Positions 49,100 to 58,578 of a stretch of DNA of 64,000 nt are shown piece by piece (within the stretch, counting starts at the first letter, position 1; each line of letters starts with the position of its first letter). Origin of the DNA: Thermotoga neapolitana DSM 4359 (GTDB taxonomy: Bacteria > Thermotogota > Thermotogae > Thermotogales > Thermotogaceae); the NCBI RefSeq assembly GCF_000018945.1, contig NC_011978.1, forward strand, positions 1 to 64,000, read 5' to 3'. The notes beneath the pieces were generated by a model that made no database searches, had not been told where the DNA came from, and saw only the letters and a list, made by a program, of their open reading frames with translations. The position numbers were made by a program, and so were the translations under genes.

Positions 49100-49414
49100 A
49101 TGAAGTTGAAGTTCTTCGGAATGGTCCTGATACTCCTTGGGGTACTCATTCTTCTTTCTGTCTTCAACGTCTTCGATGTTTCCTTTGGAAAGTTTCTGGG
49201 CTTTGTCTTTGCGGCACTCTTTGGTTACACGGGGGTGAACGCCCTCGTGAGGAAGGGCTTCCCTAACGGGCTTGTCTCCTGTGCGATAGCCCTCGTTCTT
49301 GTGCTTCACGTTTTCGGTGTCCACAGGTTCACCTTCTGGGAAGGTTTCGTTGTTTTCTTCTCTGTTCTTCTCATAGAGTGGGGATTCTTTGCGATTCTCT
49401 CTCACAGGGGCTGA
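49100..49414 (+). CDS. Small integral membrane protein of unknown function
   Basis: The 104-residue protein has four predicted membrane helices: FFGMVLILLGVLILLSVFNV, FLGFVFAALFGYTG, LVSCAIALVLVLHVFGV and GFVVFFSVLLIEWGFFAIL. I recognise no family signature. LiaF/DUF5668-like membrane proteins have a similar layout and a similar first helix-turn, so that is one possibility. AAGGGGTG precedes ATG 49100; an upstream in-frame start is unlikely. Its end overlaps the convergent FAD gene by 13 bp. Confidence 0.6.
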   Translation: MKLKFFGMVLILLGVLILLSVFNVFDVSFGKFLGFVFAALFGYTGVNALVRKGFPNGLVSCAIALVLVLHVFGVHRFTFWEGFVVFFSVLLIEWGFFAILSHRG

Positions 49415-50748
49415 ATCTTCATTCCCATTGCTCTCATGTAGCCCATCGATGTGGCGTACTGGACCGATCTTGTCCAGCCTGAACAGTCTCCGATGACGTG
49501 AAGGTCTTCCACCACGTCGTTGAGGAACTTGTTGGTGTAGAACTTCACCTCGACCGCGTAGAGCAGGTTGTCGAAGTAAGCAGCCCCCGGTATCACCCTG
49601 TCGAGGTTCTCAACGAAGTCCACAAGGGACTCTCTTATCTTCGAGGGGAACACGAGGTTCGCGTCTCCGAGAATGTAACTTTCCGGGTCCAGGGTGGGGT
49701 GGACCCTTCCAAGCCTTTTGGTCCTTCTGAACTCTTTGAAATCACCATACGTCTGGAGAATCACTTTTTCCCTGTCTCCTGCGAGGATGTTTGCGAGTTT
49801 TGCGAGATTCACCCCGTAGCCCGTCGGGTCTTTGAAGGGCTCTGTAAAACGCGTGGTGACCAGGATGGCAAAGTTCGTGTTCTCTGTCTTTCGAAGACTG
49901 TCCGAGTATCCGTTCACCGTGGTGAAGTCCTCGTACTTTTCCAGGGTCACCTTCCCTGCCGGGTTCTGACAGAAGATCCTGCAGATGTAACCCGTTTTCG
50001 TTCTGTAACGGATCTTCACCTCGTACATGTCGGAGAAGGGATCCATAACGTGGTTTGGAAGTTCGTATCTGATTCCGATGTCGACGAACTGATTCGGTTT
50101 CACAAGTTGTGGGTACTTCTCTTTGAGACGTTCCATGAGTCTGTGACCACTTCTTCCTACGGCGATCACGAGTTCATCGAATTCGAAGTCTCCCTTTTCG
50201 GTGTGTACCCTGTGGGGTGGCCCAAAGTCCACGTCCTCTGCGGTAACTCCGAAGAGAAATTCGATGTTTTCGAACGAGGAAAAGTGTCTGTATATGTTCT
50301 CGTTCGTCTCTTTGAGTATGTCAGTTCCCAGATGGAAGAAGTACGACTTCACCGGCTCAAAGCCGTGGTGGTAGAAGAGTTTGTAGACTCTCTCGTTCGA
50401 AAAGGACTCTCCAAACTCGATCTTTTTTCCGTCTCTTTCGAAGGATCTCAGATAGTTTATGAGGCCTTCTCTTCTGTCAGCGGCTGGCTTGTAGCCGGAA
50501 AACTTCAGGTAGAACTCCACCGTCTTTGCCTGGATTTCGAGGGGAATGTAGATCTCTCCTCCCATGCCGTATGAGATGAAGATCTTTCCATCCATCCTCA
50601 CACCGGAGATGGTGTTGTGGGCGTAGTCCTTTCCCCTCTCAAGAATGGTGATCCTGTAGTTGCTTATCTTTCCACTCTCTATGAGGCCGTGAATGAAACC
50701 GATTGCACTCGCACCAAAACCAACAATCCCGAGTTTCTTCAACCACAT
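49402..50748 (-). CDS. FAD-dependent dehydrogenase (COG2509-like)
   Basis: The 448-residue protein starts with an FAD-binding motif GIVGFGASAIGFIHGLIE (GxGxxG variant) and ends with VIGDCSGWTRSVQYATSMGYMRA, where an NAD(P)/FAD GD motif is expected. The middle has FDELVIAVGRSGHRLMERL and FVDIGIRYELPNHVM, which fit the family of uncharacterised FAD-utilising dehydrogenases (COG2509). These are often called 5-amino-6-(5-phosphoribosylamino)-type or geranylgeranyl-reductase-like in error. The substrate is unknown. ATG 50748 shares a base with the stop of the PHP gene (TGATG). Confidence 0.78.
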   Translation of the reverse strand: MWLKKLGIVGFGASAIGFIHGLIESGKISNYRITILERGKDYAHNTISGVRMDGKIFISYGMGGEIYIPLEIQAKTVEFYLKFSGYKPAADRREGLINYLRSFERDGKKIEFGESFSNERVYKLFYHHGFEPVKSYFFHLGTDILKETNENIYRHFSSFENIEFLFGVTAEDVDFGPPHRVHTEKGDFEFDELVIAVGRSGHRLMERLKEKYPQLVKPNQFVDIGIRYELPNHVMDPFSDMYEVKIRYRTKTGYICRIFCQNPAGKVTLEKYEDFTTVNGYSDSLRKTENTNFAILVTTRFTEPFKDPTGYGVNLAKLANILAGDREKVILQTYGDFKEFRRTKRLGRVHPTLDPESYILGDANLVFPSKIRESLVDFVENLDRVIPGAAYFDNLLYAVEVKFYTNKFLNDVVEDLHVIGDCSGWTRSVQYATSMGYMRAMGMKIQPL

Positions 50749-52388
50749 CACTCCCCAAGCAGTTTCTCCTTCAACTCCTCGGTTGTGACGACTTCACCTT
50801 TTATCTGTTCCAGGTAGGTCTTTCTGTACTCTTCATCACCACCCGGCACGATGTATATTTTACCTTTGAAGTTTTCGATCGCCTCCAGCTCTTTCTGAGA
50901 GAGTTTCTTGGCAAAACTCAGTCCACCTTCTTTCGGTGTCGAGATGATGAGGATGTCAACGCCTGACAGGTCTTTCAGCATCACCTTCGGATACTCCACT
51001 CTGTATCCTTTCTTTTCCAGTTCTTCTGCAAGGACTTTGAGTTTTTCCAGATGGTCGTTCTCGTGGAGAGTGTCTATCATGATCACGCCCCTGAGTCTTT
51101 CTTCAACGAAGAAGCTCACAGATTGAACGATTTTTCCATCAACGAGGAAGGATACCCGGTGGAATCCTTTCTTCAGCGCCCCGGTGGAAACAACGAATCT
51201 CTTCACCTGGTACGGAGAAAACTCCTGGGGAACCTTCCTGAGTGTTTCACCGTCCAGAAGTACAGAGAGCGACACCTTCTTTTTTTCGTCCGTTACATTG
51301 TAAATCTCAAAGTAAATCTTTGCAACCTCACCCTCGTGGATCTCCTCTGGAGACACCCTCACACTGTTCACGTAGACAGAAGACGGTATCTGAAACCAGA
51401 TCGGTGAGGTGACGATTTCGTCACCGTCCATCTGTTTCATGTAGACGAAGTACCATTCGTAACCATCGGAAGGTGTGACCGAGAGGGTCAGGTTCAGTCT
51501 TTCTATGTTCGGTCTGAGTTCCAGAACGGTCCCACTCTGGGAGATGACGGCAAGGTAGAGGAGTTTTTCCGTATCCTGATACTCGACGGTCAGAGTCCTT
51601 GGGGAAAGATCGTCCACGAAGACGACGTCTCCCATGAGGTGCTGGCCGCTCTTCAGAAGAACTCGAACGTTTCTGTCTTCACTTCCGAAGGTGTGTCTCT
51701 TCCAGAGGGCGTCCATGATGGAGTCGTAAGTCAGTGCGTCTGCCACTATCCCCGTTCTTGCCTCGTTTGCGCTTCCCCAGTTTGGCTTGTGGTTGTCCTG
51801 TCCGACGGTGGCTCCAAGGTGCCATCCTCTGTTGAGTGCGAGGATGTAGTTTCCGTACATCTCGGGGTTTATCACATCACCCGAGGACCAGTTTCCGTTT
51901 CCCACCTCGATCAAATTCACGTACTCGTCCGCCTCGGGAAAATACCTGAACGAGTCGAAGGTTCCAAAGGTGCTTATGGGATGGTTGAACTGGGCAAGTT
52001 TTCTGTGTTCGACGAGCCACCTGTAGAAGCCCTCCAGACTGCTCTCTCTGTTTCTGTCGATCCACTCGAGGGACTCGTACACGTTTATGTGCCCAACACC
52101 CGCCGTCCACTCGAACCCCTGAAGGGCTACGAACTTTCCATCTTCCGTGTGTCTTTCTGCGGCAAGTTTTGTCAGATACGGCTTTGTCTTGCCGTTTATC
52201 TTCTGAGCAAAATAGTAGGCGTGGTCCGTGATCGCAAGAACGTCGAGGTAGTTCTTCGCGTATTCGTAGGCCTGATCCGGTGTTCCGGAGCCGTCAGAGT
52301 AGGACGTGTGAGAGTGCAGATTTCCGTAGTATATCCCTCCAAAGGCCACACAGGAAAGAACAAGTAAAAAGAGCACCAGTTTCTTCAT
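50748..52388 (-). CDS. Secreted PHP-domain metallohydrolase (CehA/McbA-like)
   Basis: The 546-residue precursor has a signal peptide (MKKLVLFLLVLSCVAFGG) and a PHP domain with the metal motifs NLHSHTSYSDGSG (His25, His27, Asp32) and LAITDHAYY, then GFEWTAGVGHINVY, FNHP and TVGQDNHKPNWG. This is the CehA/McbA order. A C-terminal half carries a beta-sandwich domain (residues 330-440) and a DUF4350-like end (VDILIISTPKEGG). Secreted PHP hydrolases of this type cut phosphoesters or amides of unknown natural substrates. It lies with the sugar ABC transporter (13-nt gap), so a role in handling an imported compound is plausible. Confidence 0.82.
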   Translation of the reverse strand: MKKLVLFLLVLSCVAFGGIYYGNLHSHTSYSDGSGTPDQAYEYAKNYLDVLAITDHAYYFAQKINGKTKPYLTKLAAERHTEDGKFVALQGFEWTAGVGHINVYESLEWIDRNRESSLEGFYRWLVEHRKLAQFNHPISTFGTFDSFRYFPEADEYVNLIEVGNGNWSSGDVINPEMYGNYILALNRGWHLGATVGQDNHKPNWGSANEARTGIVADALTYDSIMDALWKRHTFGSEDRNVRVLLKSGQHLMGDVVFVDDLSPRTLTVEYQDTEKLLYLAVISQSGTVLELRPNIERLNLTLSVTPSDGYEWYFVYMKQMDGDEIVTSPIWFQIPSSVYVNSVRVSPEEIHEGEVAKIYFEIYNVTDEKKKVSLSVLLDGETLRKVPQEFSPYQVKRFVVSTGALKKGFHRVSFLVDGKIVQSVSFFVEERLRGVIMIDTLHENDHLEKLKVLAEELEKKGYRVEYPKVMLKDLSGVDILIISTPKEGGLSFAKKLSQKELEAIENFKGKIYIVPGGDEEYRKTYLEQIKGEVVTTEELKEKLLGE

Positions 52389-52401: not shown

Positions 52402-54510
52402 TCACTTCAGTCCGGTCCTTGCGATTCCCTGTATGAAGTACTTCTGGGTGAAGATGAACAGGATCACCACGGGAAGAATGGAGAACGTTGCCGCCGCCAT
52501 GAGGAGGTTGTACTGTGTTCCCACGTCGGAACTGAACGCCTGAAGTCCCACGGGGAGTGTTCTGTACTTTTCGCTGTTCGTCACGATCAGAACCCAGAGG
52601 AAGGCGTTCCAGCTTCCAACGAACTTCAAAAGTGCCGAGGTGATCACGGCTGGTCTGCTGAGAGGAACGACTATCTGCCATAGGAACCTCCAGTGAGAAC
52701 ACCCATCTATCTTCGCAGCGTCGAAGAGTTCTTTTGGAATGGTCAGAAAGTGCTGTCTCAGAAGGAATATGGCAAAGACACTGACGATCCAGGGAACGAT
52801 CAGAGCGTAGTAGGTGTCTATCCAGCCAAGTTTCGATATCGTGATGAAGTTGGGAACGAGGAGCACCTCACCCGGAATCATCATCGTGGCAAGAAAGAGC
52901 CCGAAGATGAAATCCCTTCCCGGAAAGACCATCCAGGAGAAGGCGTATGCGGCAAGGGACGCGGTGATCACCTCAAGGATGGTCGTTGCGGAGGCAACGA
53001 AGAAGGTGTTGAAATAGTATCTTGGAAACGGAGCGGCGTTCCAGGCATCGACGTAGTTCTGAAAGATGTTCGCCAGCACCTCACGGAAGGAAAACCTGAG
53101 TTTCACGGATTTTATGGGTTCGTCGCTCAAAAAGACAGCGGGAACACCCTCAAGGAGGATCTCTATGACCTCACCGTTTTTCACCCGGACTTCCTTCACG
53201 AAATCTGGAGCGTCCACGATCTTCCAGGAACTCATGGCATCCTCGTAGGCCTTTCTGAGAACGGCAACACTTCTGAGGTACTGCGCAATCGCACCGAGCA
53301 CATCTTCGCTCAGATCAATCTGGGAGAGTTTTGACTTCAGGACCCTGTAGGTGGAACTATCGAAGAGAACGGTGTCCAGTTTCTCCATCATCGTGGAAAA
53401 GTCTTCCTCTTCGATGCCATTTTCTTGTGCTAGACTGATCAGAGAAGAGATGACGGGTTTCAACGTGGCTATGGTGAGAAGGTCGATGTGATACTTTTCT
53501 GAGATCTCTTTTTCCTTCAACGACACGTAGTTTTCCAGAAGGTTTTCTTTCGACTCTTTCAGGAGTTTCTCAACGATTTTTCTGTCGGGGAAGCGTTCTA
53601 TCTTCTTCAAAAAGAGCGCTTCTCTTTCTTTTTCACTCATCGCCCTTGCAACGATGTTCTTTTCGACCGTGAGGTTCTGAGCGCTCTGGAAGAACTCATT
53701 GACCTCGAGGTAGTAGGAGATGTTGTCTTTTATCCCTTCGATGGGAAGGACCACTCTGTTTTCGTACACGGAAACGAGAGGGTTGTCTCCAGAGTACTCG
53801 AGGTTCACACCTTTCAGTATTGCATAGAGATCCCTTATTTCGTTGTCGGAGAGAATGAGTGTGCTTCCTGCCTTCATCTTCTCTACGTTCTCCTGGAGTG
53901 TGGAGAGTTCTTTCTTTTTGGCTTCAAGAAACAGGCGGAACCTCTCTCTTTCTGCGTCGTCTTTTATTCTCAGTTCTGTGAACCTTTCAAGTTGAGAGAT
54001 CGTTCTCAGCGAGTTTTCTATCGCACCTGAAATCTCGTTTATCAGGGTTGCCCTCTGAAAGTATGGACTCGCACCGCTTCTGTAGTGAATGAAGAACTGC
54101 TCGAAAAACTCCTCCGGCGTGTTCCAGGAAAGTTCAAAAGGAGCCTTCGAAGCGATTTCTCTGACTCTTTCCTCGTCCACCTTCGTTGTGTACCTTGCTC
54201 CTTTCAGAGGGATCGTCATCGTTCCTCTGTAGAACGGGTCGTCGTTCACCGTGATGGTCAGAAGGTTTTCCTCTTTCACCTTCAGTGCGTAGGCCTCCCT
54301 CAAGCTGACTCCCCTGGACACCTTCTGAACACCTGGTTTCAGGACCACCTTCACATCACGGGAAAATGAGAAGTTCTTCGTGTAGAACTTCGGAGGCCAC
54401 TGCTGTACCTCAGAGGGTGCCTTGAAGGAAGTGAGCACCATCCAGACGAAGGGCCCAAGCATGATGACAGCACCGAATATGAGAAGGAGGTAAACGATCA
54501 GTTTCTTCAC
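52402..54510 (-). CDS. Sugar ABC transporter permease (MalG-like) with about 420-residue insertion
   Basis: MalG-type permeases have about 280 residues; this has 702. The first membrane helix (YLLLIFGAVIMLGPFVWMVLTS, residues 5-27) and FKAPSEV are normal. A charged, coiled-coil-rich region follows from about residue 40 to 480. The usual five further helices then come (AYAFSWMVFPGRDFIFGLFLA), with the EAA loop AAKIDGCSHWRFLWQIVVPL and the end FTQKYFIQGIARTGLK. The insertion sits where the P2 periplasmic loop is and should face the outside. The gene is in the order MalF, MalG after the binding-protein gene, which is divergent. Frame integrity is good across the insertion. Confidence 0.85.
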   Translation of the reverse strand: MKKLIVYLLLIFGAVIMLGPFVWMVLTSFKAPSEVQQWPPKFYTKNFSFSRDVKVVLKPGVQKVSRGVSLREAYALKVKEENLLTITVNDDPFYRGTMTIPLKGARYTTKVDEERVREIASKAPFELSWNTPEEFFEQFFIHYRSGASPYFQRATLINEISGAIENSLRTISQLERFTELRIKDDAERERFRLFLEAKKKELSTLQENVEKMKAGSTLILSDNEIRDLYAILKGVNLEYSGDNPLVSVYENRVVLPIEGIKDNISYYLEVNEFFQSAQNLTVEKNIVARAMSEKEREALFLKKIERFPDRKIVEKLLKESKENLLENYVSLKEKEISEKYHIDLLTIATLKPVISSLISLAQENGIEEEDFSTMMEKLDTVLFDSSTYRVLKSKLSQIDLSEDVLGAIAQYLRSVAVLRKAYEDAMSSWKIVDAPDFVKEVRVKNGEVIEILLEGVPAVFLSDEPIKSVKLRFSFREVLANIFQNYVDAWNAAPFPRYYFNTFFVASATTILEVITASLAAYAFSWMVFPGRDFIFGLFLATMMIPGEVLLVPNFITISKLGWIDTYYALIVPWIVSVFAIFLLRQHFLTIPKELFDAAKIDGCSHWRFLWQIVVPLSRPAVITSALLKFVGSWNAFLWVLIVTNSEKYRTLPVGLQAFSSDVGTQYNLLMAAATFSILPVVILFIFTQKYFIQGIARTGLK

Positions 54511-57168: not shown

Positions 57169-57215
57169 GTTTAAAGTGCTCTTAAAGAAAACATGAGAGA
57201 ATCAAAACAAAGCCT

Positions 57216-57242
57216 GGGATCTTCCGATCCCTTTAAATTTTT
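57216..57242 (+). promoter_or_regulatory. Hairpin with T-rich tail in front of the purine permease
   Basis: GGGATC/GATCCC forms a 6-bp stem with a TTCC loop, followed by TTTAAATTTTTT, 20-45 bp before the permease start. It could be a weak terminator used for attenuation. The gap is too short for a standard purine aptamer and no aptamer core was seen. Confidence 0.42.
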
Positions 57243-57261
57243 TATACCGGAGGTGAGGTGT

Positions 57262-58578
57262 GTGTTCCATCTGAAAGAGCATGGAACGAACGTGAAAACG
57301 GAGATCTTTGCGGGTATCGCAACTTTCCTCACCATGGCCTACATCGTCTTCGTGAACCCCTCCATCCTCGTTCAGGCAGTTGGAGTGGATGCGGGAAGCC
57401 CTCTGTATCAGCAGTTCTTCGGAGCCTTCATGGTCGCAACGATCCTGGGATCTGCCACGGCAACACTCGTGATGGCCCTCTTTGCCAACTATCCCTTCGC
57501 ACTCGCCCCCGGTATGGGGCTGAACGCGTACTTCACCTACACAGTGTGTCTTGGAATGGGGATCGACTGGAGGGTGGCACTTGCGGCAGTTTTCGTTGAA
57601 GGTCTCATCTTCATCGGTCTGACGCTCGTTGGATTCAGAAAGTTCGTGGCCGGCATCATCCCTGAATCCATAAAGATCGCAATCTCTGCTGGAATCGGGT
57701 TTTTCATAGCGTTCATAGGATTGAGGAGCGCAGGGATCGTCGTGTCGAATCCTGCAACCTCCGTTGCCTTAGGCGATCTCACAAATCCCGGGGTTCTCGT
57801 GACTGTTGTGGGGCTTCTTGTGATCGTGGCGCTTTACCACAGGAAGATTCCGGGTGCTGTGATGATCGGAATCCTCGTTGCAACACTCGTGGGTGCCATT
57901 CCGGGAATAGGTGTTACGAAGTACCAGGGGATCGTTGGACCCATTCCGGACATTTCCCCCACGTTCATGAAACTCGACTTTTCTGGGTTTCTGAGTCTTG
58001 ATTTCTGGATCGTGGTCCTCACGTTCTTCTTCGTTGACTTCTTCGACACGCTCGGCACCATCACGGGGCTTGCCCAGAGTGCCGGCTTCATGAAGAACGG
58101 GGAGCTTCCACGAGCAAACAGGGCGTTTCTTTCGGACGCCATAGGAACCTCGGTTGGTGCCCTCTTCGGTACATCGACGGTGACGACCTACATAGAGAGC
58201 GGTGCAGGAATAGCAGAGGGTGGAAGGACGGGACTCACCGCTCTCGTTGTGGCACTGTGTATGCTCGCCATGCTCTTCTTTGCCCCCCTTGCCCAGACGG
58301 TTCCCGGATACGCCACAGCCCCCGCTCTGATCTTCGTCGGAGCCCTCATGATAGGAAACCTCGGAAAAGTCAGATGGGATGACATAACAGAGGCACTGCC
58401 TGCGTTCATCACGGTCATAACGATGCCGCTCACGTACTCCATAGCAAACGGTATTGCACTCGGAGTCATCTCCTACGCTCTGGTAAAACTCTTTTCTGGA
58501 AAAACAAAGGAGGTTCACTGGTTCACGTGGATCCTTGCTCTTGCTTTTGCACTGTGGCTTCTCTTCATAAAGCATTGA
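57262..58578 (+). CDS. NCS2-type purine permease (AzgA-like, guanine/hypoxanthine)
   Basis: The 438-residue protein has about 12-14 helices and the AzgA signature: KTEIFAGIATFLTMAYIVFV, NPSIL, ALAPGMGLNAYFTYTV, SAGIGFFIAFIGLRSAGIVV, VDFFDTLGTITGLAQSAGFM and SGAGIAEGGRTGLTALVVA. AzgA relatives are proton symporters of guanine, hypoxanthine and adenine. GTG 57262 follows GGAGGTGAG five bases upstream; a 23-residue longer start from 57193 lies before the hairpin and lacks a site. The hairpin upstream may set its expression. Confidence 0.88.
   Translation: MFHLKEHGTNVKTEIFAGIATFLTMAYIVFVNPSILVQAVGVDAGSPLYQQFFGAFMVATILGSATATLVMALFANYPFALAPGMGLNAYFTYTVCLGMGIDWRVALAAVFVEGLIFIGLTLVGFRKFVAGIIPESIKIAISAGIGFFIAFIGLRSAGIVVSNPATSVALGDLTNPGVLVTVVGLLVIVALYHRKIPGAVMIGILVATLVGAIPGIGVTKYQGIVGPIPDISPTFMKLDFSGFLSLDFWIVVLTFFFVDFFDTLGTITGLAQSAGFMKNGELPRANRAFLSDAIGTSVGALFGTSTVTTYIESGAGIAEGGRTGLTALVVALCMLAMLFFAPLAQTVPGYATAPALIFVGALMIGNLGKVRWDDITEALPAFITVITMPLTYSIANGIALGVISYALVKLFSGKTKEVHWFTWILALAFALWLLFIKH

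Follow-up and report, generated by a model that had tools for sequence, protein, structure and literature searches.

What could a domain of more than 400 residues be doing in the first external loop of an ABC transporter permease, and is the domain real? The question is raised by one gene in a stretch of 64,000 nucleotides of Thermotoga neapolitana DSM 4359 (contig NC_011978.1, positions 1 to 64,000; hereafter, the window), which a sequence-only reading had singled out as encoding a MalG-type permease with a very large insertion after its first helix. Judging from its sequences, the locus probably encodes the binding protein and the permease pair of a CUT1-type, Ugp-like ABC importer, which would be a core system of the Thermotogota (Table 1).

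The permease gene and its family

The gene is a single intact frame of 702 codons with a GTG start, preceded by a GAGGTGG sequence that resembles a ribosome-binding site. The in-frame gene described earlier is thus borne out, on the minus strand; a plus-strand reading of the same interval meets six stops and was ruled out. In an alignment of the permease to UgpE and MalG of E. coli, matching sequence covers about residues 1-41, which hold helix 1, and resumes at about residue 479, from where it runs to the end, so that residues 42-478 (437 residues) are extra sequence that separates helix 1 from helix 2. The earlier placement of the insertion at about residues 40-480 was therefore accurate, and the claim that the insert greatly exceeds the P2 loop of MalF holds too, P2 having about 180 residues (PMC2246101). 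In Pfam, the permease domain PF00528 (BPD_transp_1) is recognized at 80.5 bits against a cut-off of 26.4, at residues 516-696 only. The core is 69-99% identical across the phylum, and its ATPase-coupling EAA loop is intact, with D597, A598, I601, D602, G603 and P616 invariant in 17 sequences. This architecture of permease and insert is near certain.

The label “MalG-type” can be kept in part. The protein is a CUT1 permease, as the label implies, but not a MalG in the strict sense, since it scores 147.5 bits with the UgpE equivalog PRK10973 (cut-off 297) and 71.2 bits with the MalG equivalog PRK10998 (cut-off 261), short of the cut-off in both cases. For all three proteins of the putative importer, the best NCBIfam model is a Ugp model (UgpE as above, UgpA at 105.9 and UgpB at 109.7 bits), with the Mal models lower and every score under both the Ugp and the Mal equivalog cut-offs. 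By this measure the transporter appears nearer to Ugp than to Mal, and outside the cut-offs of both families. The glycerol-3-phosphate importer UgpB-UgpA-UgpE of E. coli is accordingly the best-scoring named system for the set, although E. coli UgpE and UgpA lack either insertion of the Thermotogota pair.

Table 1. Features of the importer locus and its neighbours, in window coordinates.
Feature	Position	Strand	Basis or remark
FAD-dependent protein, PF21688 C-terminal domain	49402-50751	-	four-base overlap with the metallohydrolase gene
Secreted CehA/McbA-type metallohydrolase	50748-52388	-	directly downstream of the permease
UgpE/MalG-like CUT1 permease gene, 702 aa, giant first external loop	52402-54510	-	ORF, Pfam, NCBIfam
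Permease core, residues 479-702, helices 2-6	52405-53076	-	Pfam PF00528; identity across the phylum
EAA coupling loop, residues 593-617, KELFDAAKIDG...PL	52660-52734	-	needed to bind the ATPase; invariant residues
Insert domain, residues 42-478	53077-54387	-	UgpE/MalG alignment; AlphaFold2 on residues 41-482
Predicted C-terminal half of beta base, residues 428-472	53095-53229	-	model strands; conservation mostly higher, 0.44-0.67
Predicted helical bundle of insert, residues 113-427	53230-54174	-	model helices; fast evolving; mostly absent in short paralogue
Predicted N-terminal half of beta base, residues 50-100	54211-54363	-	model strands; conservation; kept in short paralogue
Transmembrane helix 1, residues 4-28	54427-54501	-	hydropathy peak 4-22; model helix 2-28
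Partner permease, UgpA/MalF-like, 420 aa	54520-55782	-	Pfam, NCBIfam; orthologues phylum-wide
Four-helix membrane insertion of partner permease, residues ~70-185, first external loop	55228-55575	-	alignment and hydropathy
Substrate-binding protein, 419 aa	55879-57138	+	signal peptide without lipobox cysteine; divergent gene
NCS2-type nucleobase permease-like gene	57193-58578	+	by eye; no NCBIfam match

Predicted structure of the insert

From topology alone, we infer that the insert is extracytoplasmic. AlphaFold2 was run with 17 sequences; the whole permease was modelled with a pLDDT of 78 and the insert by itself (residues 41-482) with a pLDDT of 86.8 and a pTM of 0.75, the five models being alike in confidence. 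The insert is predicted to be a compact alpha/beta domain, in which the two ends of the insert together form a beta base that bears a helical bundle. Strands are modelled at residues 50-58, 83-88, 97-100, 428-433, 438-444, 448-453 and 468-472, with a short one at 286-290, and about 15 helices lie between the end strands. The base may be interpreted as the part nearest the membrane. Conservation within the insert is highest in the strands and at positions such as R51, D90-D91, R95-G96, P435, V438 and F473; R51, DD90-91 and R95-G96 make up the signature of the N-terminal half of the base, and R95-G96 is invariant. Conservation in the helical bundle is 0.33-0.49. A shorter paralogue of 567-574 aa (L125, L126), found in one family of the class, keeps the beta base and lacks most of the helices; in this second system, one or two binding-protein genes adjoin the permease.

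The earlier description of the loop as coiled-coil-rich is right only in part, since the model is of a compact alpha/beta domain in which coiled coil would be local at most. The accompanying suggestion that the domain could reach the toga now seems unlikely, since the model is compact and its longest helix, of about 33 residues, would span only about 50 Angstrom (at about 1.5 Angstrom per residue).

A Pfam search of the insert gave no match that recurred among its members, a PDB sequence search with the insert alone found no relative, and Foldseek found no fold match to its model in the PDB at E<=0.001 (best E 0.07, TM below 0.2). PDB sequence matches to spike HR1 and a sorting nexin, obtained with the whole protein, look like an effect of helical composition and were gone when the insert was searched alone. 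Without a relative in Pfam, PDB sequences or PDB folds, the insert is best described as a domain of unknown family, and its fold is possibly new.

Distribution, selection and the question of an artefact

Of the 103 Thermotogota genomes, 99 contain a genuine match to the insert profile; the exceptions are G002, G033, G034 (which gave one chance-level match only) and G090. The insert-bearing frames are mostly 690-845 residues long. Compared with other genera, the insert is 17-42% identical and the core 69-87%. Between close species, dN/dS is 0.09-0.19 for the insert versus 0-0.05 for the core, so purifying selection acts on both parts, though less tightly on the insert. Beyond the phylum, a scan of the genome collection confined whole-protein matches to the Thermotogota, no match to the insert was found in 251 Chloroflexota genomes, and in the phyla of G107 (398 genomes) and G106 (247 genomes) the insert profile gave only partial matches of 19-23 bits, in helical stretches. 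As far as searched, then, the insert is restricted to one phylum.

Could a separate gene have been joined to the permease through a sequencing or assembly error? The permease frame is indeed broken in a few relatives (G091, G057 and G041), and in two others (G039 and G081) it carries a single internal TAG codon. Specifically, a 19-base deletion within the insert region of G091 (L128, 6918-9010) splits the gene into frames of 153 and 581 codons. However, uninterrupted full-length copies occur in nearly all of the 103 independent genomes, and this phylum-wide conservation leaves the error so improbable that it can be rejected. A fused gene or an assembly artefact is what the sequence-only reading had named as telling against its own observation; the insert proved to be phylum-wide, and the observation stands.

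A second large insertion in the same loop

In the MalG1 and MalG2 permeases of Thermotogales, helices 1 and 2 are separated by a hydrophilic stretch of about 500 residues, which was reported to be present in no other MalG and to have no known function (Noll et al. 2008; PMC2246101). These proteins (TM1202 and TM1836) correspond to frames of 837 and 824 residues in the present genome, and their type is also phylum-wide. They share with the permease described here the phylum, the TM1-TM2 loop of a CUT1 permease as the site, and the large size of the insert. Unlike it, they belong to a different transporter of the Mal lineage, and their insert lies further from TM1, after an HYKDLV motif; it also looks all-helical by sequence and is rich in long helical stretches. 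Homology between the two inserts was considered and is not supported, since the hhalign alignment, for all its probability of 64%, scored 46.8 and thus barely above the 44.0 of a reversed control. If the inserts are not homologous, large insertions entered the same loop in two CUT1 lineages of the phylum, apparently with separate origins. The majority of the remaining CUT1 permease frames in this genome are 273-314 aa long, a normal size.

The partner permease and the gene neighbourhood

The partner permease also carries an insertion in its first external loop, the same loop that holds the big insert. It comprises about 115 residues and four predicted transmembrane helices, and positive charge is found in the turns on the side expected to face inwards. 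This insertion is present in all aligned Thermotogota orthologues and absent, by alignment, from UgpA and from Chloroflexi and Sumerlaeota relatives; as a conserved feature of the partner, recognized from alignment and hydropathy, it is new here.

In the genera examined other than Thermotoga, the permease pair is usually found by itself. At two such loci (L123 and L124) it lies directly downstream of hslU (plus hslV in L123) and is followed by housekeeping genes; genes such as miaA, hflX, aspS or transaldolase lie in the vicinity, and no sugar-import genes are close by. The binding-protein gene adjoins the pair, in divergent orientation, within the genus Thermotoga; in the genomes examined outside the genus it is unlinked to the permeases, and in distant Thermotogota (L137, L138, L139, L141, L142 and L144) it often follows genes that resemble apt (adenine phosphoribosyltransferase), pgi and coaE, as judged by eye from their sequences. 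Among the loci examined, the metallohydrolase gene is next to the permease in the genus Thermotoga only. In the window, the NCS2-like gene begins 54 bases after the binding-protein gene, and the two possibly form one operon.

The binding protein and joint losses

The binding protein occurs phylum-wide in the Thermotogota. No lipobox cysteine is evident after the signal peptide in the window protein or in nine distant ones (ten examined). Its nearest PDB binding protein, 7c14, is named only as a sugar-binding protein, and a paper describing it was sought in the literature and not found. With regard to the ligand, UgpB residues Tyr42, Ser121 and Arg374 are invariant in the same set of one window and nine distant Thermotogota proteins, and Glu66 and Trp169 are not conserved in the Thermotogota proteins compared; all five are residues of the glycerol-3-phosphate pocket of UgpB. 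A phosphate-bearing ligand is thus suggested as no more than a lead.

The four genomes without the insert permease, which belong to three genera, also lack its partner and the binding protein. The binding protein is missing from eight genomes and the insert permease from four, and the overlap is complete (four). By hand calculation, the chance of such an overlap is about 1.6e-5 on the assumption that genomes are independent, which is not fully true, or 7.7e-5 if G001 is scored as lacking. Three of the four genomes (G033, G034 and G090) retain a permease of the MalG1 type, the other long MalG, so the losses do not reflect a general loss of sugar transport. Gene content across these genomes shows that the three proteins have been lost together.

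Possible roles of the insert

The most economical reading is that the insert serves as a docking or capping platform for a binding protein that is unanchored and usually encoded elsewhere, in view of those two properties of the protein, the intact EAA loop and the shared losses. We regard this reading as having close to an even chance of being correct. On this model, the insert would capture and orient a binding protein that lacks a lipid anchor and whose gene usually lies at a distant locus, and docking would keep ligand transfer efficient in a wide periplasm and at high temperature. In MalFGK2, where the external loops of the two permeases are related by pseudo-symmetry, the P2 loop of MalF contacts the maltose-binding protein. 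The insert, on the UgpE/MalG side, would do the job that P2 does in enteric bacteria, and may be braced by the partner's membrane insertion.

Docking gains support from the fact that the TM1-TM2 loop is the pseudo-symmetric counterpart of P2, from the near-universal presence of the insert, the purifying selection on it and its confident fold when modelled alone (and, for the most part, within the full protein), from the partner insertion, which occupies the same loop and is equally widespread, and from the short paralogue, which keeps the beta base and adjoins binding-protein genes. The likeness to P2 of E. coli is that of a large external domain on a pseudo-symmetric loop of a partner-type subunit. 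P2 is carried by MalF rather than MalG, however, and the 50 best Foldseek matches to the modelled insert include no MalF structure; the Ig-like fold of P2 was not encountered. Several observations count against docking. The helical part is poorly conserved, which suggests a spacer rather than a precise interface. The net charges of the insert (-7) and the binding protein (about -15) are both negative, and thus offer no complementarity. Finally, most other CUT1 permeases of the genome, which are of normal size, evidently work without such a domain.

The last of these points also bears on the idea that the insert is an envelope anchor, which would attach to peptidoglycan, a periplasmic protein or a toga protein and thereby position the transporter in the unusual envelope of the Thermotogota. 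An anchor would fit a domain that is limited, as far as searched, to one phylum with a peculiar envelope, and would also fit the second, unrelated insert in the same loop of MalG1/MalG2 and the enlargement of both permease subunits. Yet no known peptidoglycan-binding or outer-membrane-binding domain was matched in Pfam, PDB sequences or PDB folds, and the prediction is of a compact domain that would not be long enough for the toga itself, all of which makes an anchor rather unlikely. A role in recruitment or regulation, with the insert holding a periplasmic enzyme or sensing ligand to gate transport, would account for the secreted metallohydrolase encoded directly downstream in Thermotoga and for a helical bundle that differs between lineages, as might be expected of a partner-specific surface. 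The hydrolase gene does not adjoin the permeases in the other genera examined, however, while the insert is found in nearly all genomes, and we consider such a role distinctly unlikely.

It is also conceivable that the domain has no specific binding function and merely thickens and stabilizes the permease at high temperature. In favour of such a neutral or stabilizing expansion are its fast sequence change relative to the core, its tolerance of protein lengths from 690 to 845 aa, the existence of a short paralogue without most of the helices and the fact that many Thermotogota are thermophiles. Against it are retention across nearly the whole phylum at a dN/dS of 0.09-0.19, with an invariant R95-G96 and a conserved base, and the presence of mesophilic lineages in the phylum, and such an expansion seems improbable.

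Returning to the docking platform, its fullest form would be a new ABC importer architecture: a vertically inherited, phylum-wide Ugp-like system in which the same loop has been enlarged in both permeases, by a soluble domain of new fold in one and by four membrane helices in the other, the two together making up a permanent tower to receive a binding protein that diffuses freely and is remotely encoded. We offer this larger picture tentatively, as one that is possible but more probably wrong in some part than right as a whole.

Significance

The importer is kept in nearly every Thermotogota genome and, in the genomes examined in detail, has housekeeping genes as its neighbours. The literature searched yielded no study of it and nothing relevant on TM0595-TM0599 (presumed locus names); the 19-base deletion in the permease of G091 could be part of the reason that the complete system went unnoticed. 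Within a single phylum, at least two transporter lineages now turn out to carry giant insertions in the same loop, apparently of independent origin. The insert itself is a candidate new protein fold, and the system as a whole would provide a defined test of how unanchored periplasmic binding proteins find their transporter.
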